From the NCBI RefSeq assembly GCF_003050935.1, contig NZ_QAOX01000006.1:62001-126000 (forward strand): a stretch of DNA of 64,000 nucleotides, given 5' to 3'. This DNA comes from Luteibacter sp. OK325. GTDB taxonomy: Bacteria; Pseudomonadota; Gammaproteobacteria; Xanthomonadales; Rhodanobacteraceae. Below the pieces are notes generated by a model. That model was not told the DNA's origin. It saw only the letters and a list, made by a program, of their open reading frames with translations, and did no database searches. How positions within the stretch are numbered: position 1 is the first letter of the stretch; every line of letters begins with the position of its first letter. Positions 1,381-30,399 of the stretch are shown here, in pieces. The translations under genes and the position numbers were made by a program.

Positions 1381-1497
1381 GATCCATTGGTGTCTCTCGC
1401 GCAACACGGTGGTCCCGCTGACGGATCTACCGGGCATCACCGGCCATGCCTAACCTTTGCCTCATCCCATCTTCCCAATCGCTAACGAGGCAATCAC

Positions 1498-1971
1498 ATG
1501 CGTGTCGATTATCAGAAGCAGTCGCCGGAACTGTTCAAGAAGTTCCTCGACTTCACCATGGCGTTCGGCCATTCCTCGATCGAGGAGTCGACCCGCGAGC
1601 TCGTCGAGCTGCGCGTATCCCAGATCAACGGTTGTGCCTTCTGCGTGGACATGCACGCGAAGCGCGCCACGATCCATGGCGAACGCGCGTTGCGCCTGCA
1701 CCATGTCGCCATCTGGCGCGAATCGAACCTGTTCACCCCGCGTGAGCGCGCCTGCCTTGCCTGGGCCGAAGTCCTGACGCAGATCCCCGCCCAGGGCGTT
1801 GCCGATGAGATCTATGAGCGCGTTCGGACGCAGTTGTCCGAGAAGGAAATATCCGACCTGACATTCTCTGTCATGGCCATTAACGGCTGGAATCGGGTGA
1901 ACGTCGCTTTTCACGTCGAGCCCGGCATCTTCGACAAGGCCTACGGCCTGGATCAGTCCGGCCTCGCCTGA
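1498..1971 (+). CDS. carboxymuconolactone decarboxylase / AhpD-family protein
   Basis: A 157-residue protein with the AhpD-like core, including the CxxC-xxx-H motif (NGCAFCVDMHAKRA, residues about 39-52) that acts in peroxidase/thiol redox chemistry in this fold. The ending WNRVNVAFHVEPG resembles YciW/CMD-type peroxidases. The ATG at 1498 follows AACGAGG. A cupin and an ECF41 sigma factor follow on the same strand. ECF41 factors are known to be genomically linked to CMD, oxidoreductase or epimerase genes, so membership in that module is likely. The substrate is unknown. Confidence 0.85.
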   Translation: MRVDYQKQSPELFKKFLDFTMAFGHSSIEESTRELVELRVSQINGCAFCVDMHAKRATIHGERALRLHHVAIWRESNLFTPRERACLAWAEVLTQIPAQGVADEIYERVRTQLSEKEISDLTFSVMAINGWNRVNVAFHVEPGIFDKAYGLDQSGLA

Positions 1972-2031
1972 GGCCGCTCAAACCGGCGAGGCGTATCCCG
2001 CCTCGCTTTTCCCTCCTGCGAGGACATCCCC

Positions 2032-2454
2032 ATGCGACATTTCAAGACACTCGCCCTGCTCCTGCTGGTGATCACCGGCAATGCCGCCGCCCATGACGCC
2101 GCCACCCATGGCGACACGACGGCGCCGCAGGCCAAGGTCACCGAGAACATGACCAGGCCCCTGCCCGACTTTCCGGGCAAGGAGATCCTCACCATCACGG
2201 TCGATTACCCGCCGGGGGCCGTGGATCCCGTCCACCGCCACGACGCGCACGCGATCGTCTATGTGCTCGAAGGCTCGATCATCATGGGCGTGAAGGGCCA
2301 GAAGGAGCAGGTGCTCAAGCCGGGCGACAGCTTCTATGAAGGCCCGAACGACATCCACACCATCGGCCGCAATGCGAGCAAGACCCAGCCTGCGAAGTTC
2401 GTGGTGTTCCTGCTGAAAAACCAGAACGCGCCGGTGCTTACCCCGGTTAACTGA
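2032..2454 (+). CDS. secreted cupin-domain protein
   Basis: A 140-residue protein with a Sec signal peptide (KTLALLLLVITGNAAAHDA, cleavage near residues 20-21), then one cupin barrel. Metal-binding histidines are in DPVHRHDAHAIVYVLEG (motif 1), and GDSFYEGPNDIH is motif 2. It probably acts in the periplasm. The ending IGRNASKTQPAKFVVFLL is nearly the same as in the cupin at 40017-40442 (ISRNASKTEPARLLAVFV), so the two are paralogues. It lies 60 bp after the CMD gene and upstream of the ECF41 factor. Confidence 0.85.
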   Translation: MRHFKTLALLLLVITGNAAAHDAATHGDTTAPQAKVTENMTRPLPDFPGKEILTITVDYPPGAVDPVHRHDAHAIVYVLEGSIIMGVKGQKEQVLKPGDSFYEGPNDIHTIGRNASKTQPAKFVVFLLKNQNAPVLTPVN

Positions 2455-2496
2455 AGCAGGGTTCGCCAAGACGGCGGCGGCTAGACTGACCCACCG

Positions 2497-2523
2497 TGTC
2501 ACAACGACACGGCGACGAACGTC
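2497..2523 (+). promoter_or_regulatory. ECF41-type promoter (TGTCACA-N16-CGTC)
   Basis: TGTCACA at 2497-2503 and CGTC at 2520-2523 are separated by exactly 16 bases, matching the ECF41 target promoter TGTCACA-N16-CGTC. It lies immediately before the ECF41 gene (ATG at 2533), which implies autoregulation. Transcription would start about 6-9 nt after CGTC, practically at the ATG, so the mRNA may be leaderless. Confidence 0.8.
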
Positions 2524-2532
2524 TTGGTCTCT

Positions 2533-3408
2533 ATGAACGACGCAACCGCCACCTTTACCGCCCTCCGCTCCCGCCTGCACGGGATCGCCTACCGTATGCT
2601 CGGCTCGGTCTCCGAATCCGAGGATGTCGTGCAGGACGTCTGGCTCAGTTGGAACGAGGCCAACCAGGCTGCGATCGCAAACGCCGAGGCGTGGCTGGTG
2701 ACCACCACCACCCGGCGCTCGATCGACCGCCTGAGGGCGGCGAAGGCGCGCCGTGAGCACTATGCCGGCATCTGGTTGCCGGAGCCGGTGCTGACCGAAG
2801 ACCCGGCTACCCCCGAATCCCTGCAGGAGCTGTCCAGCGATGTGTCGGTGGCCTTCCTGCTTCTGCTCGAACGGCTCACTCCCGAGGCGCGCGCGGCCTT
2901 CCTCCTGCGCGAGGTGCTCGATTCGGACTATCCGGAGATCGCGCAGACCCTGGGCAAGAGCGAGGCCGCGTGCCGGCAGCTCGTCCACCGGGCCAAGGAT
3001 CAGATTCGCGACGAACGCCCCCGCCAATCGGTGACGCCCGACTTCCACCGCCGGCTCATGCACCGTTTCGCCAGCGCGTTGTCCGCGGGTGACTTTCCCG
3101 CCATCCGCTCCATGCTCGCCACCGACGCCGTGCTGATGGGCGATGGCGGTGGCAAGGTCACCAGCTTCCCGAAGCCCATGCTCGGCGGCCAGCGTATCGC
3201 CCAGCTCTTCTACGCGGCGAACCTGCGCTACAAGTACGGCATGCGGTTGCAACTTGCGACCATCAATGGCGAAGCCTCGCTGCTACGCTTTCTCAACGGT
3301 GAGCTCGAGTCCGTGCAGACTTACGTGGTAGATGGCGAGCACATCACGCAGATCCACATACAGCGCAACCCCGACAAGCTCGAGCGCATCCTGCAGTCCC
3401 TGAATTAG
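2533..3408 (+). CDS. ECF41-family RNA polymerase sigma factor
   Basis: A 291-residue sigma factor. Region 2 (LHGIAYRMLGSVSESEDVVQ) is followed by the ECF41 linker signature WLPEP, region 4 (LTPEARAAFLLREV, then SEAACRQLVHRAK) and a C-terminal SnoaL-like extension with the DGGGK motif (MGDGGGKVTS). In this family that domain controls sigma activity directly, in place of an anti-sigma factor. I use the ATG at 2533; an in-frame TTG at 2524 abuts the -10 element and is unlikely. There is no Shine-Dalgarno, which fits a leaderless transcript from the promoter at 2497-2523. The CMD and cupin genes upstream are the expected kind of neighbours. Confidence 0.93.
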   Translation: MNDATATFTALRSRLHGIAYRMLGSVSESEDVVQDVWLSWNEANQAAIANAEAWLVTTTTRRSIDRLRAAKARREHYAGIWLPEPVLTEDPATPESLQELSSDVSVAFLLLLERLTPEARAAFLLREVLDSDYPEIAQTLGKSEAACRQLVHRAKDQIRDERPRQSVTPDFHRRLMHRFASALSAGDFPAIRSMLATDAVLMGDGGGKVTSFPKPMLGGQRIAQLFYAANLRYKYGMRLQLATINGEASLLRFLNGELESVQTYVVDGEHITQIHIQRNPDKLERILQSLN

Positions 3409-23875: not shown

Positions 23876-24271
23876 GGGGATGTTCTGGTTTCGACGGGGG
23901 TAGTGCGATCTACTGGTGCATGCCGAGGGGGTAGCTTTCCTCGTTAAACCAGCTGCAAAAACTATAGTTGCCAATGACAACTACTACGGTAATGACGCTT
24001 CGGTGGCTCTCGCCGCCTAAAGCGTTCGGCCCCTAAAAAAGGCCCTACCCCCGAACCGATCTTGTGCTCATGCTCGTCGGTGTAGGGTCACTATCATGAG
24101 ACCGCCGAAAGACTCTCCATCTGTGGGTCTGACGCTAGATCAATCAGGTATGTCCGTCGGTGCGCTTCGCACACCGTGCTGCTGGCGGACGAGATCTAAC
24201 GGTGAGCTAAGCATGTAGATCTGGAGATTAAACGCCTTCGGACGCGGGTTCGACTCCCGCCATCTCCACCA
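23876..24271 (+). ncRNA. ssrA: transfer-messenger RNA (tmRNA)
   Basis: The 5' end GGGGATGTTCTGGTTTCGAC and the 3' tRNA-like end (GGTTCGACTCCCGCCATCTC, then CACCA) form the alanyl acceptor arm, with CCA encoded. The resume codon is most likely GCC after ATAGTT, giving the tag ANDNYYGNDASVALAA and then TAA. It rescues stalled ribosomes with SmpB. The 3' end is a common integration site, and the accessory island begins right after it. Confidence 0.97.
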
Positions 24272-24277
24272 ATATGG

Positions 24278-24311
24278 CCCCCTGAGTAATTTCGTTGCTC
24301 AGGGGGTTTTT
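24278..24311 (+). terminator. tmRNA terminator
   Basis: CCCCCTGAG and CTCAGGGGG enclose an 11-nt loop and are followed by TTTTT. Confidence 0.9.
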
Positions 24312-24490
24312 CGTAGGCATCAGGCGTGTGAACAAATTTAGCTCGGCTGGCCGGACTCGACTTCGCCGCCGATGTCAGCCTACGCGTCGACAGGGTGGCC
24401 GCCGATTGCGCTACTGGTACAAAGACTTTCAAATGGGCATTAAGCTTTTTCGCCCCATGCCGCTACATTGATGGACCATAGGATGGCGCA

Positions 24491-25375
24491 ATGCGGTTTT
24501 ACTTCCCTACCTGCGACGACAGCGAACGGGCTCATGAGCTCCTCTCGCACGTCTTCGTCCGGGTGTCGAGTATTCCTCGCGCCCCTATCACTTTCGATTT
24601 TTCGGGCTGCGGTGACCTACGTCCGGCGGGGCTAGTCATTCTGGCTGGCATGTCCAGGCAACTACGACTGCGAGGAATTCGGCCGAATATCGACATCACA
24701 ACGATGACCCCCAAGGTCTATAGCCAGTTCACGGGTAGCGGATGCCGCTCCCATCTATTTAGTGACGTCGCCTCCACTCAATCGACGCTTTTTCGCCACG
24801 ACGAGACTGAGGACGAGGATGCCATCATCAGCTTTCTACGAGATCAGTGGCTCGGCGGTTCGCGGCTTATCATGAGCGCAGGGGCGCGCGATACCTTCAT
24901 CACCCACCTGTGGGAGGTGTACGCAAACGCCTTCGAGCACGGCGATTCGGGGGTCGGAGTCTACACATGTGGCGAACAAATTGGGGAGGACACACTTATC
25001 CTCACCGTGGCGGATTTCGGTCCCGGCATCCCGGCGAATGCGGCCCAGAAACTTCGGAAGGAGTGGATACCCGGAGATCAGGCGCTTGCATGGGCTTTCA
25101 CCCGGGGAACTACCACAGCCGCCAACCAGCGCTATCCCCGGGGACTTGGACTCGACTTACTGAAAGAATTTGTGAACATCAATGGTGGGCGCCTTGATAT
25201 ATATAGCCACCATGGTCATGGACGCGTGGAAAGCGCAGAACCTCGGTTTAAAAGTCTAATGCTTTCGATGGGTGCCACTGTGGTGCAGATACGCCTACAC
25301 TGCGATGATCGATTGTACGTACTCCAGCAAGAATTGGAGCAGCAGCTGCCGCCTCCAGGGACGCCTTTATTTTGA
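24491..25375 (+). CDS. STAS-like / GHKL ATPase protein (partner-switching type)
   Basis: 294 residues. Residues about 25-95 resemble a STAS fold (ITFDFSGCGDLRPAGLVILA). Residues about 110-280 form a GHKL ATPase: N box THLWEVYANAFEHG (Glu142, Asn146), G1 VADFGPGIP (Asp175) and G2 RGLGLDLL (218-223). There is no phospho-acceptor His box, so it resembles anti-sigma kinases of the SpoIIAB/RsbW type. The stop lies 11 bp before the ATG of a small DUF4325 STAS protein, and a PIN nuclease gene follows: a three-gene operon. The base composition looks more AT-rich than the core genes. Function unknown. Confidence 0.8.
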   Translation: MRFYFPTCDDSERAHELLSHVFVRVSSIPRAPITFDFSGCGDLRPAGLVILAGMSRQLRLRGIRPNIDITTMTPKVYSQFTGSGCRSHLFSDVASTQSTLFRHDETEDEDAIISFLRDQWLGGSRLIMSAGARDTFITHLWEVYANAFEHGDSGVGVYTCGEQIGEDTLILTVADFGPGIPANAAQKLRKEWIPGDQALAWAFTRGTTTAANQRYPRGLGLDLLKEFVNINGGRLDIYSHHGHGRVESAEPRFKSLMLSMGATVVQIRLHCDDRLYVLQQELEQQLPPPGTPLF

Positions 25376-25386
25376 TAGGTGAAGCC

Positions 25387-25686
25387 ATGCGCATACCAGT
25401 CGCCGAAATCGCCGGACGAAACGCGGTCTCCTCAAAGGCCGGCGAAGCTGTGTACAAGGCAATAATCGGCAGCATTGATGTCGAAACCGTCGAACTCGAC
25501 TTCATCGGCGTCGAGATTTTCTCCACTCCGTTTTTCAACCTCGCAATCGGTCGCCTACTTGAGCGTATGTCTGCTGACATGCTCAACCAGAGGCTTCAAG
25601 TGGTCAATCTGACCCCGCTTGGCTTCAGCACCCTTCGTCGCGTGATCGACAATGCGAAGCGTCATTACTCTGGGCTTGCAACTTAA
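25387..25686 (+). CDS. STAS-like DUF4325 protein
   Basis: 99 residues from the ATG at 25387, preceded by TAGGTGA; a TTG five codons upstream is possible. It has the DUF4325 pattern: a Gly/Ala-rich helix, VELDFIGVEIFSTPFFNLAI and LQVVNLTPLGFSTLRRVID. DUF4325 proteins look like anti-sigma-antagonist STAS domains and occur beside GHKL ATPases, as here. It is probably the binding partner of the upstream ATPase. I see no obvious phosphorylatable Ser in the usual DSSG context. Confidence 0.75.
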   Translation: MRIPVAEIAGRNAVSSKAGEAVYKAIIGSIDVETVELDFIGVEIFSTPFFNLAIGRLLERMSADMLNQRLQVVNLTPLGFSTLRRVIDNAKRHYSGLAT

Positions 25687-25695
25687 GGGAGCGCG

Positions 25696-26361
25696 ATGGA
25701 CCGCCACGCAGCAAAGCCGCGAAATGTAACCGCCCTCACATTCGACATCACCGATAGTACAACCGCATTGCCCCCACGAATGCTCGTTGATACGAATGTG
25801 TGGCTCCTGTCGCAGTACAGCCCTTTTAGCCTTGGCAACCGGCAAGCCGTTGCTGTTGTTTACACAGATTTTCTCGCTAGGTGTTTGGAAGAGGGTTGCC
25901 AGCTGGTTCGAAGCCCCTTCACGTTGCCCGAAGTCACTCACGTCATCGAGAAAGCGGAGTCTGTCGCAGTACAACAGCGGGGTGGCAAGATGGATCTCAA
26001 GCAACTCCGATGGGAACCGAATCATCGCCGAAAAGTAATTGCCGAGATTGTCGCCACTTGGCAGCAGGTTCAAGGCATGAGTGTCTGGTCTCCCGGACTA
26101 ACCGTCGACGGAAACGTCGGAGATCAGATGTTAGTGGATTTTAGAAACCGAAAGATCGATGGCTATGATCTGTTGATCGTTCAAGAGGCACTGCAGGGTG
26201 GCGGGCTCCCTATCTTGACCGACGATTTCGACTACCTATCAGTACCGATGCTCAAGGTGTACACGGCCAACGAACGTGCGGTCAATGCAGCGAAGGTTGG
26301 CGGAAAGCTGCGTACCGGCGTCACAAATCAAGGCAACGCGCGCCAGGTGAGTCAGGCCTAG
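25696..26361 (+). CDS. PIN-domain putative ribonuclease
   Basis: 221 residues with the acidic PIN constellation: MLVDTNVWLL (Asp32), TLPEVTHVIE (Glu79/Glu85), DGYDLLIVQEA (Asp158) and ILTDDFDYL (Asp176/177/179). It starts 9 bp after the STAS gene with AAGGGAGCG as ribosome-binding site. No separate antitoxin of a VapBC pair is visible. The neighbours suggest its activity may be gated by the ATPase/STAS pair instead. Confidence 0.75.
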   Translation: MDRHAAKPRNVTALTFDITDSTTALPPRMLVDTNVWLLSQYSPFSLGNRQAVAVVYTDFLARCLEEGCQLVRSPFTLPEVTHVIEKAESVAVQQRGGKMDLKQLRWEPNHRRKVIAEIVATWQQVQGMSVWSPGLTVDGNVGDQMLVDFRNRKIDGYDLLIVQEALQGGGLPILTDDFDYLSVPMLKVYTANERAVNAAKVGGKLRTGVTNQGNARQVSQA

Positions 26362-26616
26362 CGACGGGCGACACTAGTGCATGCCACCAAAGTTACCGCC
26401 GGCATACTCTTCGCATCGAGCTCCCTGCGGGCGACACTGAGCGGTGAGCGTGCAGGCATTTGTGTGAACCGGTACCGAGCCTCCCCGTGCGCCAGGTCAA
26501 CGGCGCCTTCACCACCGGCTAGAGACCGCACGCTGCGATGACGGCGGCGGCTCCCTTTTTGAGCCAACAGCATTTGTCATTGCTTCCACGCCATGTTCGG
26601 CATTCCCCGCTAAGAC
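26362..26616. other. gap between convergent defence-type operons
   Basis: 255 bp between the PIN gene (+) and the CD-NTase gene (-). I see no convincing gene, attachment repeat or clear terminator. Confidence 0.5.
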
Positions 26617-27729
26617 TCACGGCACTCGAACCTCCTTGAGAATTTGCCGCGCGCTGTCACTTGTCGGAATCGGACCTAACAATCTGAATTCGGCGGCAAC
26701 CGCCTTCGACAGCTCATCCATCTCGCTCGACAGGGCTAGAAGCGCACTCACCTTGGCTTCGGTGTCGAAGATGCGACGGGTGCCATCGGGGACATACAAA
26801 CGCTGAGCTTCGTTCGGGTGGTAGTAAAGATAATCCAGGTACCTCTGGGTCTCGGCCAAGATTGCAAGCTCATGGAACACACCCATCCGGAGTGCCGCTA
26901 GGTCCGCGTGAAACATGATGGCGGCAATGTCGAAACTCGGAAGGGCGATATCGCGACCCGAGTCAGCCTTGACGTTTTTGCACAACCGAATGGCCTTTTT
27001 CAGGCCCCCCACCGCTATGGCATCCTGGTCCGACACCAGCTTGATGTGCTTGAATGGAAAATTGGTCACTGTCTGGTTGGCTTTACGGTCAAGAATGATC
27101 ACGCCCCTATCGTGGAGCTGACCTGTCCTCTGGTAGTCCGCACCGTCATACCAGTGCGACGGGACCACATCTACGGAGCGTGCCAGCGAACCACCGAAAA
27201 TCTTGATGGCCTTGCTACCCGATGTGTCCACCGATGCGGCCGGAAATGCCTTCTTGAGCGCTGGTTCCTCCTCATTACGCAAGTTGATCAGTTGCTGAAG
27301 TGAGTTATCCGCGGAAGGCCAATAGGTGTTGGACCTGATTCCACTCTTGTCGTAGGTCAGGAACTGCCCATCAATTGTGGTCAACAGGTCTACGTCGCTC
27401 ACACCTTTGATGTGGACGTTCAGCGGCACCGAACCCTGCAACTTGAAATCGAGGTTGAATCCGCCCACCCGCTTGCCCAGCTGATTCGCAACCCGATCAG
27501 CCGTCTCCAAGCTGATACGTGTGTAGTCAGGATCGACTTCCTGCATGGCGCCCAAGGCGTACTGGGTAAACGGCTTGCCCCCTGCCCTGCCCTCCCAGAT
27601 CTCCGGCAAGTACAACTTGCGTCGATAGCTCTCCAGCGCAACGTTGTCGGCTGCGACTACGGCAAGCCCGTCGGCGCCTTTTCGTCGCCCCTTCAGTGCT
27701 GATATTCGCTCTTGAATATTCGTTGCCAT
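26617..27729 (-). CDS. CBASS cyclic-oligonucleotide synthase (CD-NTase)
   Basis: 370 residues. It has the CD-NTase active-site signature QGSVPLNVHIKGVSDVDLL (Gly99-Ser100, Asp112, Asp114) and a third acidic residue in SLARSVDVVP (Asp187). In this family the enzyme makes a cyclic oligonucleotide on phage infection, which activates the partner effector. The ATG overlaps the stop of the upstream Cap15-like gene by one base. No Cap2/Cap3 or HORMA/TRIP13 gene is next to it, so this is a type I arrangement. The nucleotide product cannot be read from sequence. Confidence 0.85.
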   Translation of the reverse strand: MATNIQERISALKGRRKGADGLAVVAADNVALESYRRKLYLPEIWEGRAGGKPFTQYALGAMQEVDPDYTRISLETADRVANQLGKRVGGFNLDFKLQGSVPLNVHIKGVSDVDLLTTIDGQFLTYDKSGIRSNTYWPSADNSLQQLINLRNEEEPALKKAFPAASVDTSGSKAIKIFGGSLARSVDVVPSHWYDGADYQRTGQLHDRGVIILDRKANQTVTNFPFKHIKLVSDQDAIAVGGLKKAIRLCKNVKADSGRDIALPSFDIAAIMFHADLAALRMGVFHELAILAETQRYLDYLYYHPNEAQRLYVPDGTRRIFDTEAKVSALLALSSEMDELSKAVAAEFRLLGPIPTSDSARQILKEVRVP

Positions 27730-28352
27730 TAGGATCTCCTCAAGATCATGCTGCCCGACGAATGCCGGCCGTCCCCGTTGAAATAATCGCCCTCGGCCCG
27801 TTGCAAGTCCTTGGCGAAGACGAGACGGGCAAAGCCACGATGGACAGACAACTGGCCATCTTCAGGCTTCGGCTCATTCTGGTAGCTGTAGAGCAATACG
27901 TATCCTTCGATCGGGTCCGTGGTGAGCGCTGCTACGATGCTGTTGGATGCGGATTTAGCTGTCTTGAGGTGGACCCGGAAACGGTCCCAATCCTGGGTGA
28001 TTGTCACGGCGGCCTTCCATGCGATCGCCTTTGAGTCGGGGCGTGGGAAGGGTGAGCCCTCGCAAACCCAAGTTCCGGCGAGGTTCGCGACCTTTAGCCA
28101 GCGCATGATCCATGGAAGCCGCCACACCCATTTTCGAAAGAGCAAATAGAGCCCGGCGTAGACCGTCCCAGCGCCAAGTAGGGAAAGGAAAACAGGCGGT
28201 AGGTTCACCCCTAGCCCGAGCCCTTTCGCGACGTCGACCACCTGAAGCAACGCCCACACCAAAATGCCTGACACGACTGAGGCTGTTCTGGTCAAATACC
28301 TTCCAACTTGGGCGCGATTGGTCCCACCCAACACGACATATTCATGGTCCAT
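27729..28352 (-). CDS. cap15: Cap15-like membrane beta-barrel CBASS effector
   Basis: 207 residues. There are two N-terminal hydrophobic helices (about residues 25-40 and 52-72) and an aromatic stretch (LLFRKWVWRLPWIMRW), then a small beta-barrel opening with NLAGTWVCEG. It continues with ITQDWDRFRVHLKTAKSASN, VLLYSYQNEP and GDYFNGDGRHSSGSMIL, the pattern of Cap15 receptors. Cap15 binds the cyclic nucleotide and oligomerises in the inner membrane to cause abortive infection. It is upstream of and coupled to the CD-NTase gene. Confidence 0.8.
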   Translation of the reverse strand: MDHEYVVLGGTNRAQVGRYLTRTASVVSGILVWALLQVVDVAKGLGLGVNLPPVFLSLLGAGTVYAGLYLLFRKWVWRLPWIMRWLKVANLAGTWVCEGSPFPRPDSKAIAWKAAVTITQDWDRFRVHLKTAKSASNSIVAALTTDPIEGYVLLYSYQNEPKPEDGQLSVHRGFARLVFAKDLQRAEGDYFNGDGRHSSGSMILRRS

Positions 28353-28621
28353 CGAGCTCCCCTGTTCGATTCACTAAACTTCATGCTATTCCGTGCGCCG
28401 ATGCCTGCAGCCTGCGCCTAAACAACAGACTGCCCCAGACCACCTAAACCGAACCCACAGTCTTCCGGCACACACCAAAAAACATCCGGCATAAGGATGG
28501 CGCAGCGGTGTCGCATTCGGTGAGAATCCGACGAAGCGCCCGCGGCGGTGGGAACGCACCGCCCTATCTCTTTAAATGGTCGCCGAACCTCAGCTACGTC
28601 GCGGCTAGGCGTTTTCGTGAG
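28353..28621. other. gap between Abi_C and CBASS genes
   Basis: 269 bp that probably hold the CBASS promoter on the minus strand. There is a GGCGGTG/CACCGCC inverted repeat around 28540-28560 without a U-tract. Nothing else was recognised. Confidence 0.4.
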
Positions 28622-29446
28622 TTATGGCAGCGTACTGAGCAGCAACGACGCGATATTGCCCATACTTTCGATGGCGAACCGCGCCTCTGCCCCCGACACG
28701 GTGGCCACCCACGGTCGCCCATGGCCCGTCCCCTGCTTGTTGCGCAGCCCATTCAGGGCACATGCGAGTTCGTATGCAGCTCGTTCCACCCGTTGTCGCT
28801 CGGAAGCTGTTCCGGTGTTCCCGCCATCGGGTGTCGCGAACTGGACCATCGTGAACGTCTGGCCAAGCAAGGTCGGGAAGTTGGTGACGGTGGCCTTGGC
28901 GCCCGTCCGCTGCTCCAGCACGTGGGCCGCGGTCGCCTCCAACAAGTCCTTGGCTGTGCCGGCCAGCAGGGGGCTGTCGAGCGCACCCCTTCGCGCGCGG
29001 TCCGCATAGGCCCGCAAAGCGGCTGTCAGTTCCTTACCCCGGAGCGCGTCCAGCACACGCGGTTGGAGAACACCATCTAGCGAAAGGTCCCAACCCTCCG
29101 CCTCGAACGCGCTGATCAGGTTCGCGATGGCGTCGTCTCCGCAATGGCTCGCCGATCCTTTGCGGAAACCACCACTTCCCTTCACCAGCCCGATGAGCGA
29201 CTCGACCAGAGCCTCTCCGGCGGCGACGTCGTATTCGATTGCCCAGTTGAGCACCGCGGCCACCCGCCTAGCCTTACCCACGGGTTTGGGACCTTGCGCA
29301 GGATCGGCGGCCGACAAGCCAGCCTGCCCGATGCGCACGCCTATCTCGGAATGACTGGGCGCCCGTTTATCCTTCACCTGGGAATCGTCTACCAAGCGCG
29401 CTAGGGCTACAGCAATAGGATCGGTCAGCGGTGGATGTTGCGACAT
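28622..29446 (-). CDS. abortive infection family protein (Abi_C domain)
   Basis: 274 residues. The C-terminal half fits the Abi_C family: LLAGTAKDLLEATAAHVLEQ, NFPTLLGQTF, then ALNGLRNKQGTGHGRPW and GNIASLLLSTL. The RN...HG motif resembles the catalytic R-x4-6-H of HEPN RNases. The N-terminal half is not recognised. It has the same orientation as the CBASS pair but is 269 bp upstream, so probably a separate unit. Phage defence is inferred from the family and the neighbours. Confidence 0.75.
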   Translation of the reverse strand: MSQHPPLTDPIAVALARLVDDSQVKDKRAPSHSEIGVRIGQAGLSAADPAQGPKPVGKARRVAAVLNWAIEYDVAAGEALVESLIGLVKGSGGFRKGSASHCGDDAIANLISAFEAEGWDLSLDGVLQPRVLDALRGKELTAALRAYADRARRGALDSPLLAGTAKDLLEATAAHVLEQRTGAKATVTNFPTLLGQTFTMVQFATPDGGNTGTASERQRVERAAYELACALNGLRNKQGTGHGRPWVATVSGAEARFAIESMGNIASLLLSTLP

Positions 29447-29691
29447 GGTCTGGCTTCCTGGTTGCCTACACTGGCGACGAACGGTTCGGCCGAGCGCCTG
29501 TCAGGAGTTGGTTTGCCGAACTTACTTAGTGAACTCACCTAACCCCTTCTCCTGGCACATCCTCGCCCGCGCCAGCCAATCCGACACAAAACTCCATTGT
29601 TCGCGTCATGGAGGTTGCAATCTTAGCGGAGCTTTCATTCAAGTCGCCTGTGCTGTCGGCACGGCACAGCGCGGAAAGAAATGCACCTGGT
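29447..29691. other. end of the accessory island
   Basis: 245 bp with the presumed Abi_C promoter on the minus strand. I looked for a second copy of the tmRNA 3' end (CTCCCGCCATCTCCACCA) and found none. Confidence 0.4.
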
Positions 29692-30399
29692 TCAACCGCG
29701 TGTCGCAGCGCCCCCCGGCAACACATAAAACAAAACAGCAAAGTAGTGCAGCACGCTCCCCGCCACCACAAACAAATGCCACAACGAATGGTGAAACGGC
29801 AAACGCTTCGCCAGATAAAACGGCACGCCCGCCGTATAAGCAACACCGCCCGCCACCAATAACATCAGGCCGGCCTTCGGAACGTGTGTTGCCAGCGGCT
29901 GGAACGCCGCAATCGCGCCCCACCCCATCGCGACATACATGAACACCGCCGCGCGGTGGTAGCGCTTCAGGATGCCGAGCTCGAGCACACTGCCGACGAT
30001 GGCCAGCAACCAGATCATGCCAAACAGGCAGAGGCCCCATGTTCCGGGCACCGCGATGAGCGCGAACGGGGTGTAGGTGCCGGCGATCAGCCAGTAGATG
30101 CCCAGGTGGTCCAACGTCCGAAGGACACCCTGGGCGCTGTGATGTGGAAGGGCGTGACAAAGCGTCGATGCGGCGTAGAGAAAAATCAGGGTGGTGCCGT
30201 AGAGCGCGCTGGCGAACACAGCCACGGACCCGCCATACATAGCCGCTTTCGCAACCAGGGTGACGAGCCCGGCAATGCTGAGCCCGACGGCCAGCCCATG
30301 GACGATGCAACTGCCCAGTTCGTCAACGCGCGCATGGGGCACAACGGCGCGGCTCGCATCCATGGCCATCTGGTAGTCCCGTCGAAGGCAGGGTCTCAT
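29692..30399 (-). CDS. hemolysin III / YqfA family membrane protein
   Basis: 235 residues with about seven transmembrane helices of the PAQR/hemolysin III superfamily. The metal-binding motifs are LYAASTLCHALP with RTLDHLGIYWLIAGTYTPF, and PFHHSLWHLFVVAGS near the C-terminus (Ser, Asp and His residues conserved in the superfamily). The ATG at 30399 has GAGG eight bases upstream. The role in bacteria is unclear; hydrolase or membrane homeostasis functions have been proposed. Confidence 0.92.
   Translation of the reverse strand: MRPCLRRDYQMAMDASRAVVPHARVDELGSCIVHGLAVGLSIAGLVTLVAKAAMYGGSVAVFASALYGTTLIFLYAASTLCHALPHHSAQGVLRTLDHLGIYWLIAGTYTPFALIAVPGTWGLCLFGMIWLLAIVGSVLELGILKRYHRAAVFMYVAMGWGAIAAFQPLATHVPKAGLMLLVAGGVAYTAGVPFYLAKRLPFHHSLWHLFVVAGSVLHYFAVLFYVLPGGAATRG

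Follow-up and report, generated by a model that had tools for sequence, protein, structure and literature searches.

A three-gene operon between ssrA and CBASS

Which system is encoded by three closely spaced genes of Luteibacter sp. OK325 that join the parts of a partner switch to a predicted nuclease? The locus lies in a 64,000-nucleotide stretch of contig NZ_QAOX01000006.1, called here the window, and positions are counted from its first letter. The genes are named after the published operon with which they are compared below. The vapK-like gene (24491-25375, + strand, 294 aa, ATG start) encodes a STAS-like N-terminus followed by a GHKL kinase/ATPase of the SpoIIAB/RsbW type. The vapS-like gene (25387-25686, + strand, 99 aa from its ATG, or 104 aa from an alternative TTG start at 25372) encodes a DUF4325/STAS protein with a candidate phospho-acceptor, T47, and a short C-terminus, while the vapC-like gene (25696-26361, + strand, 221 aa, ATG start) encodes a predicted PIN-domain RNase toxin with an unusually long C-terminus. 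The intergenic gaps are 11 bp between vapK and vapS (25376-25386) and 9 bp between vapS and vapC (25687-25695), and the open reading frames and the sequence bear out the three same-strand, tightly linked genes described in an earlier sequence-only reading of this DNA. A simple promoter scan, which is weak evidence, gave no site upstream of vapK.

Individual domain assignments vary in strength. Window VapK scores 33.6 bits against Pfam HATPase_c (cut-off 26.4) and window VapS 38.5 bits against Pfam DUF4325 (cut-off 23). The PIN protein of the window has no match in Pfam, PADLOC or NCBIfam at E 0.1 nor in PHROGs at 0.001, and the corresponding protein of a Deinococcus relative matches Pfam PIN with 35.6 bits. 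The STAS-like N-terminus proposed earlier for the ATPase holds at the level of the family, where the Deinococcus protein matches PF01740 STAS (23.3 bits, cut-off 22.6) and the ATPase family profile matches TM1442 (E 1.3e-4), which is an anti-sigma-factor antagonist, as well as RsbS (E 0.0098); in the window protein itself this domain falls below Pfam detection.

The sequence-only reading had also stated that neither a sigma factor nor a VapB accompanies the operon, and a scan of eight neighbouring proteins agrees, with none of either kind among them. With the SpoIIAB-SpoIIAA and RsbW-RsbV switches the operon has in common the GHKL fold (a relative matches SpoIIAB) and a STAS substrate with a Ser/Thr at a helix start. 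It differs from them in that neither a sigma factor nor a PP2C phosphatase gene was seen in it, the held partner being an RNase.

Relationship to the published VapKSC operon

Profile searches against solved structures gave the operon a name. The STAS-protein profile matches chain A of PDB 9z7o, 'Escherichia VapS', at E 7.4e-28, while chain C, 'Escherichia VapC', is matched by the profile of the PIN proteins at E 5.1e-33; with the window proteins alone, phmmer gives E 1.6e-11 for VapS against 9z7o_A and E 4.3e-23 for VapC against 9z7o_C. According to PMC13373217 (EMBO J, June 2026), VapKSC is a three-gene anti-phage operon of Escherichia sp. E4736, with 289 vapKSC cases, 36% of which have a further immune gene no more than 10 kb away, and with a solved VapS2-VapC2 structure (PDB 9z7o). 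Escherichia VapC is toxic and VapS acts as its antitoxin, and the operon gives about 2-log protection against one phage, Bas42, for which VapC D28, VapS S48 and VapK F54 are required (PMC13373217). Within the literature searched, the word VapKSC was found in that paper only, and passages of PMC7159879 and PMC7824862 make no mention of a kinase-STAS-PIN triad.

The operon had not been recognised as a named system; it is very probably a divergent member of the VapKSC type. That the switch-to-nuclease logic might be new was likewise considered here, and is rejected in view of the VapKSC paper. What stands of the earlier proposal is a defence-related switch whose released partner is a nuclease where others release a sigma factor, which agrees with the published system and with the conservation described below; its claim to a new logic does not stand. 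Homology, gene order, co-inheritance and residue conservation are observed for the window operon, which is very probably a vapKSC-type toxin-antitoxin operon whose VapC would be restrained by VapS and freed when VapK phosphorylates VapS. It shares with VapKSC the gene order, a kinase without HTH, a STAS protein with a conserved Ser/Thr and a PIN RNase. It differs in that window VapS is without most of the inhibitory C-terminal region, the window VapC C-terminus is longer than in the 71 other rows aligned, and the window copy sits beside a convergent CBASS.

Recurrence and co-inheritance of the triad

The main test of conservation was a query with the ATPase only (alignment A5, of four rows), for which each species was represented by a single genome; 132 stretches matched a pattern and 68 loci were confirmed, one of them (L080) identical in sequence to a query row (L049). 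The STAS gene is adjacent in 68/68 loci and the PIN gene in 67/68, in the same order, and the sole PIN miss (L091) is a locus cut by a contig end. The triad is thus conserved, and its gene order recurs beyond chance in loci found by the ATPase alone. Split VapK or VapC frames were flagged in 9/68 relatives, which may reflect decay or assembly error.

The same arrangement is found on mobile elements. Against plasmids and phages, the window ATPase query found one plasmid and one phage record, both with triads, and the window PIN query found no match. On a plasmid of Deinococcus gobiensis the same three genes stand in the same order, annotated as ATP-binding protein, STAS-like domain protein and PIN protein, with identities to the window over the aligned parts of 26% (ATPase), 39% (STAS) and 24% (PIN); the Deinococcus PIN query found only itself among plasmids. 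The phage record, MT837343.1 (L012, unverified, from human faeces), holds a complete triad at 1420-3192, preceded by two internal virion protein genes and followed downstream by a DNA invertase gene, and its kinase groups with that of Neorhizobium (L138; support 100/99). Among viral contigs no relative was recovered with PIN alone, with the broad ATPase alignment or with two single ATPases; a closer ATPase alignment found two loci, a triad beside an integrase gene (L079) and one cut by a contig end (L078). An ATPase match on a Phaeobacter plasmid has no STAS or PIN gene adjoining it in the annotation, and a DNA search of complete Escherichia coli genomes with one relative (L053) as query gave no copy.

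Searches were also made from the other two genes. Of 398 genomes examined in the phylum, 29 carry DUF4325, at 31 places in all, and four of these places are triads (the window, G390, G393 and G526). The family PIN profile matched 5/398 genomes, namely the four triads, all of which had themselves supplied rows of that profile, and one truncated relic. Single-PIN queries matched 2/274 genomes (the window and G235) and 3/369 (G526, G217 and G235); the PIN loci of the window, G526 and G217 are triads, and in G235 only 137 bp separate the PIN gene from the end of its contig and the start of the frame is not recognised, which precludes a judgement of its neighbours. A PIN gene standing alone as an ordinary VapC had been named as the finding that would speak against the triad, and every judgeable locus found from the PIN side is a triad except the relic (G442).

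The relic itself (L148, 6668-7192, − strand) is without kinase or STAS gene and has lost the C-terminal acidic residues; a type III Res gene lies alongside and a piece of Mod overlaps it.

The protein distances of the three genes are correlated, showing that they are co-inherited. Over the 63 loci in which all three proteins are near complete, the Mantel r is 0.949 for kinase and STAS, 0.887 for STAS and PIN and 0.930 for kinase and PIN, with 0/2000 permutations as high. These values also bear on the simpler view that the operon is an ordinary VapBC-like pair, with the STAS protein as a plain antitoxin and the GHKL protein incidental. VapS and VapC do form a toxin-antitoxin core, and the PIN fold is VapC-like, a PIN toxin of the VapC/FitB fold held by an antitoxin being common to VapBC and FitAB. 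An incidental kinase would nevertheless be hard to reconcile with VapK-VapS distances that are more strongly correlated than those of VapS and VapC, with PIN-first searches that gave kinase loci wherever judgeable, the truncated relic aside, or with the loss of phage protection in the VapK F54A mutant (PMC13373217). Moreover, the gene before PIN in the window encodes a DUF4325/STAS protein and not a DNA-binding VapB, and a kinase is part of the operon. We therefore consider a plain VapBC-like pair very unlikely and retain the kinase-controlled vapKSC-type operon.

The kinase tree spans 13 named phylum-level groups and requires 22 label changes where the minimum is 12; transfer of vapKSC-type operons between phyla is therefore likely, though not proven. 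The window kinase pairs with that of L053 (100/99), both on long branches (3.26 for the window), and a further triad, L176, is close to L053. Identity of window VapK to other kinases of the family is 16-33%. Separately, the kinases of L085 and L086 are nearly identical in bins titled Thermodesulfovibrionia and Deltaproteobacteria, through recent transfer or a binning error.

Genomic setting and the neighbouring CBASS

The operon starts 219 bp past the tmRNA gene (ssrA, 23876-24271, + strand, ARAGORN), which bounds on its left side the variable interval containing the operon; a smpB-ssrA query matched in 22/23 genomes of the genus set, the operon's own genome included. In L151 and L152, the two closest genomes, the interval between ssrA and the HlyIII gene (window 24272-29692) is of another length, and its genes are different and without similarity to those of the window. 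Because the cargo in both, judged by eye, is not defence, we describe the stretch as a variable interval and claim no defence hot spot. A second copy of the tmRNA end, sought as an att duplication that would prove integration at ssrA, was not found; the window has a single one.

Tail to tail with the operon lies a CBASS (26617-28352, − strand), composed of a cyclase (26617-27729; PADLOC, 477 bits) and a Cap15 effector (27729-28352; PADLOC 2TM effector, 259 bits; Pfam Cap15, 114 bits). The CBASS noted earlier is thus indeed adjacent; a functional tie is not borne out, CBASS being on the opposite strand and convergent. Beside CBASS, an Abi_C-domain gene (28622-29446, − strand; Pfam 41.6 bits) has no PADLOC match.

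This adjacency invites comparison with CapK and CapS, which according to PMC13373217 regulate CBASS and other operons, and which share with the window a GHKL-STAS kinase, a STAS substrate with a conserved serine and a defence setting. A GHKL-STAS and STAS pair adjoining CBASS might accordingly act as a CapKS-like regulator of its neighbour rather than as a toxin-antitoxin unit. CapK, however, carries an N-terminal HTH, and CapS carries a wHTH and represses transcription (PMC13373217), whereas window VapK has no HTH match at E 0.1, the 99-aa VapS has no room for a wHTH, and the output is a nuclease. CBASS is convergent, and vapKSC is therefore not upstream of its promoter, the position expected relative to a regulated operon; the PIN gene, in turn, is kept in 67/68 relatives. 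A regulatory role of this kind is thus hardly credible, and the vapKSC-type toxin-antitoxin reading is the one we pursue.

Conserved residues, predicted folds and proposed mechanism

Both catalytic sites are preserved. In window VapK the GHKL residues E142, N146, H150, D175, G177 and G218-L219-G220 are intact, and across the family E142 is conserved in 74/75 rows, N146 in 75/75, H150 in 73/75 and D175 and G177 in 73/73. The PIN protein keeps D32, N34, D155, D158 and D177 in 73/73 rows, E79 in 75/75 and D179 in 71/73. The full acidic set ascribed to the PIN protein is therefore intact in the window and kept across relatives, and the two residues singled out beforehand, ATPase N146 and PIN D32, are invariant in 75/75 and 73/73 rows. 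The E-N-H spacing of the N-box is that of SpoIIAB, and at the site that we take, through the SpoIIAA motif, to be the matching one, the N-terminal STAS part of the kinase has Ala in 60/69.

In VapS the phospho-serine position is Ser or Thr in 75/75 rows (57 Ser, 18 Thr); it is T47 in the window, which aligns to the Ser/Thr site (S48) of 9z7o_A. The phospho-mimic S48E in Escherichia VapS leads to loss of antitoxin action and of VapC binding (PMC13373217). The aromatic residue proposed for the ssDNA site is F54 in Escherichia VapK and W68 in CapK (PMC13373217). Window VapK has D42-L43 where relatives have Trp at 42 in 65/69 and Phe at 43 in 48, positions that may or may not correspond to Escherichia F54.

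Two pairwise joined-chain folds, made from proteins of relatives, point to the same families. The STAS and PIN proteins folded as one chain with a mean pLDDT of 92 and a pTM of 0.66, with unreliable relative placement of the two parts, and the PIN part has its structural matches among VapC and FitB proteins, with E 3e-3 for the best. The kinase and STAS chain (pLDDT 83, pTM 0.70) matches SpoIIAB first (1l0o, 1tid; E 1.7e-4) and then gyrase ATPase domains.

Following the published system, we propose that VapS would hold the RNase VapC in an inactive complex. The STAS-GHKL kinase VapK would respond to damaged DNA or to an infecting phage by phosphorylating VapS at the conserved Ser/Thr (T47 in the window), and phosphorylated VapS would release VapC. 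In turn, the freed VapC would cut RNA and halt growth, thereby limiting the phage. That VapK itself phosphorylates VapS, and that ssDNA activates VapK, are predicted steps, the latter carried over from CapK: in PMC13373217, VapK activity and ssDNA sensing rest on prediction and on the relative CapK, for which ssDNA activation is demonstrated.

A shortened VapS tail and an extended VapC

The window copy departs from its family at two C-termini. Window VapS has 8 residues after a conserved Lys (K91 in the 99-aa form), the shortest tail of 74, the median being 24 and the next shortest 11 (two rows); the nearest relatives keep tails of 19 (L053) and, by eye, about 22 residues (L176). With T47 aligned to S48, its last residue falls close to position 100 of the Escherichia protein, whose chain runs on for about 16 residues more. 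Conversely, the conserved Asn of the TAN motif is followed in window VapC by 29 residues, the longest C-terminus of 72 (median 6, next longest 16).

Deletion of residues 94-116 of Escherichia VapS abolished antitoxin activity (PMC13373217). Since this C-terminal region was looked for in window VapS and found wanting, we class the operon as a VapKSC variant. Given the short tail and the effect of the Escherichia deletion, VapC inhibition in the window copy may be different or weak, and the shortened VapS tail and the lengthened VapC C-terminus may be linked. For the same reason we infer, rather than observe, that the window operon works as the published switch. Also weighing against the vapKSC-type reading are the divergence of window VapK, its D42 in place of the usual Trp, the failure of Pfam to detect its STAS part, the promoter scan without a site and the 48/68 relatives in which neither Mod nor Res is in its expected place.

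The two C-termini could also be read as marks of a decaying copy, in which the switch no longer works after loss of the VapS tail, or VapC is weakly made or weakly toxic. The extreme lengths of both proteins and the long tree branch (3.26) would fit such a history, and decay may occur in the family, as judged by the split frames in 9/68 relatives (unless these are assembly errors) and by the truncated relic in G442. Against this, the window retains three open reading frames separated by short gaps, the catalytic and phospho-acceptor positions are kept, and an intact PIN toxin left unrestrained would not be expected to persist. We regard decay as improbable, and continue with an intact vapKSC-type operon of altered C-termini.

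Type III restriction-modification genes beside relatives

Two proteins of L082, a methylase and a restriction protein, served as queries for the surroundings of the relatives; their family names follow from PADLOC MTase_III (382 bits), REase_III (61 bits) and Pfam ResIII. A type III Mod gene lies upstream on the same strand in 20/68 loci, 14 of which also have Res downstream, and neither gene is in its expected place in 48/68. Mod is within about 600 bp in 19 of these 20 loci; in the other (L113) some 4 kb separate it from the operon, a stretch that contains pieces of Res, and in L101 and L103 Res is upstream of Mod instead. In the 14 Mod loci inspected, the kinase start reads [A/G]TGA in 14/14, and the Mod frame ends on that TGA in 13; in L086 the Mod match ends earlier. 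PDC-M47A/B-like genes occur in four loci, L095 by PADLOC and L102, L103 and L108 by similarity to L095.

As a control, not genome-matched, we used 38 loci, made up of 27 with DUF4325 but no triad and of 11 regions around ssrA from the genus, and found Mod or Res in 0/38 (389 kb vs 745 kb). Around the window copy, no R-M gene was found among the genes scanned with Pfam and PADLOC; its own genome has 16 ResIII matches, and the ResIII domain is also present in all 14/14 control genomes. Two observations speak for a defence setting, Mod upstream in 20/68 relatives against 0/38 controls and CBASS beside the window copy.

A word search of the main text of PMC13373217 does not find 'type III', and both the VapS tail shortening, with the long VapC C-terminus, and the type III R-M linkage go beyond that main text. 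A parallel is PrrC with type I R-M, an RNase linked genetically to an R-M system in a guard role, described as kept silent by the R-M enzyme until an anti-restriction factor sets it off. In the case of vapKSC, and in the relatives only, the R-M system belongs to type III, and the RNase comes with a kinase switch of its own.

Other DUF4325 loci and implications for the family

Beyond the triads, 8/27 DUF4325 loci without PIN (L045, L048, L051, L061, L062, L064, L066 and L069) share a motif like GSSFLEEAFGGL and are directly followed by a gene for a protein of 147-219 aa with a hydrophobic stretch (19-residue mean >=1.6 in 7/8). A GHKL-like protein precedes DUF4325 in 7 of the 8, as judged by eye; of the three run through Pfam, L066 is above the cut-off and L051 and L045 are weak. 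Leave-one-out profiles of the small proteins recovered 4/8 at E <0.02 and missed one, an unrelated ORF scoring 0.009. The hydrophobic-stretch protein is possibly a third output of the same GHKL-STAS switch. Six further loci (L044, L046, L047, L054, L056 and L059) encode single chains of 335-374 aa with an HTH-looking start, a GHKL-like part and DUF4325 (Pfam: L044 only).

A broader picture can be drawn, which we offer tentatively and consider more apt to fail than to hold. The kinase and DUF4325/STAS pair might be a general plug-in sensing ssDNA or damage, with at least three outputs: DNA binding through CapS, the RNase VapC, and, in other DUF4325 loci, a small protein for which a single membrane helix is predicted. 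One branch would be built into the type III operon (mod-vapK-vapS-vapC-res, the mod stop overlapping the vapK start), where restriction, whether it fails or is active, would set off the suicide RNase, and in the window copy inhibition may have moved from the VapS tail into the extended VapC.

For the family, the window adds a member and not a principle, since the release of a nuclease by a partner switch has been described before. The system has spread over 13 named phylum-level groups, one phage record and one plasmid. A naturally occurring VapS that is missing most of the tail on which inhibition depends in the published system raises the question of how VapC is really held, and the switch inside the type III restriction operons of relatives offers a direct way to test restriction damage as a trigger of abortive infection.
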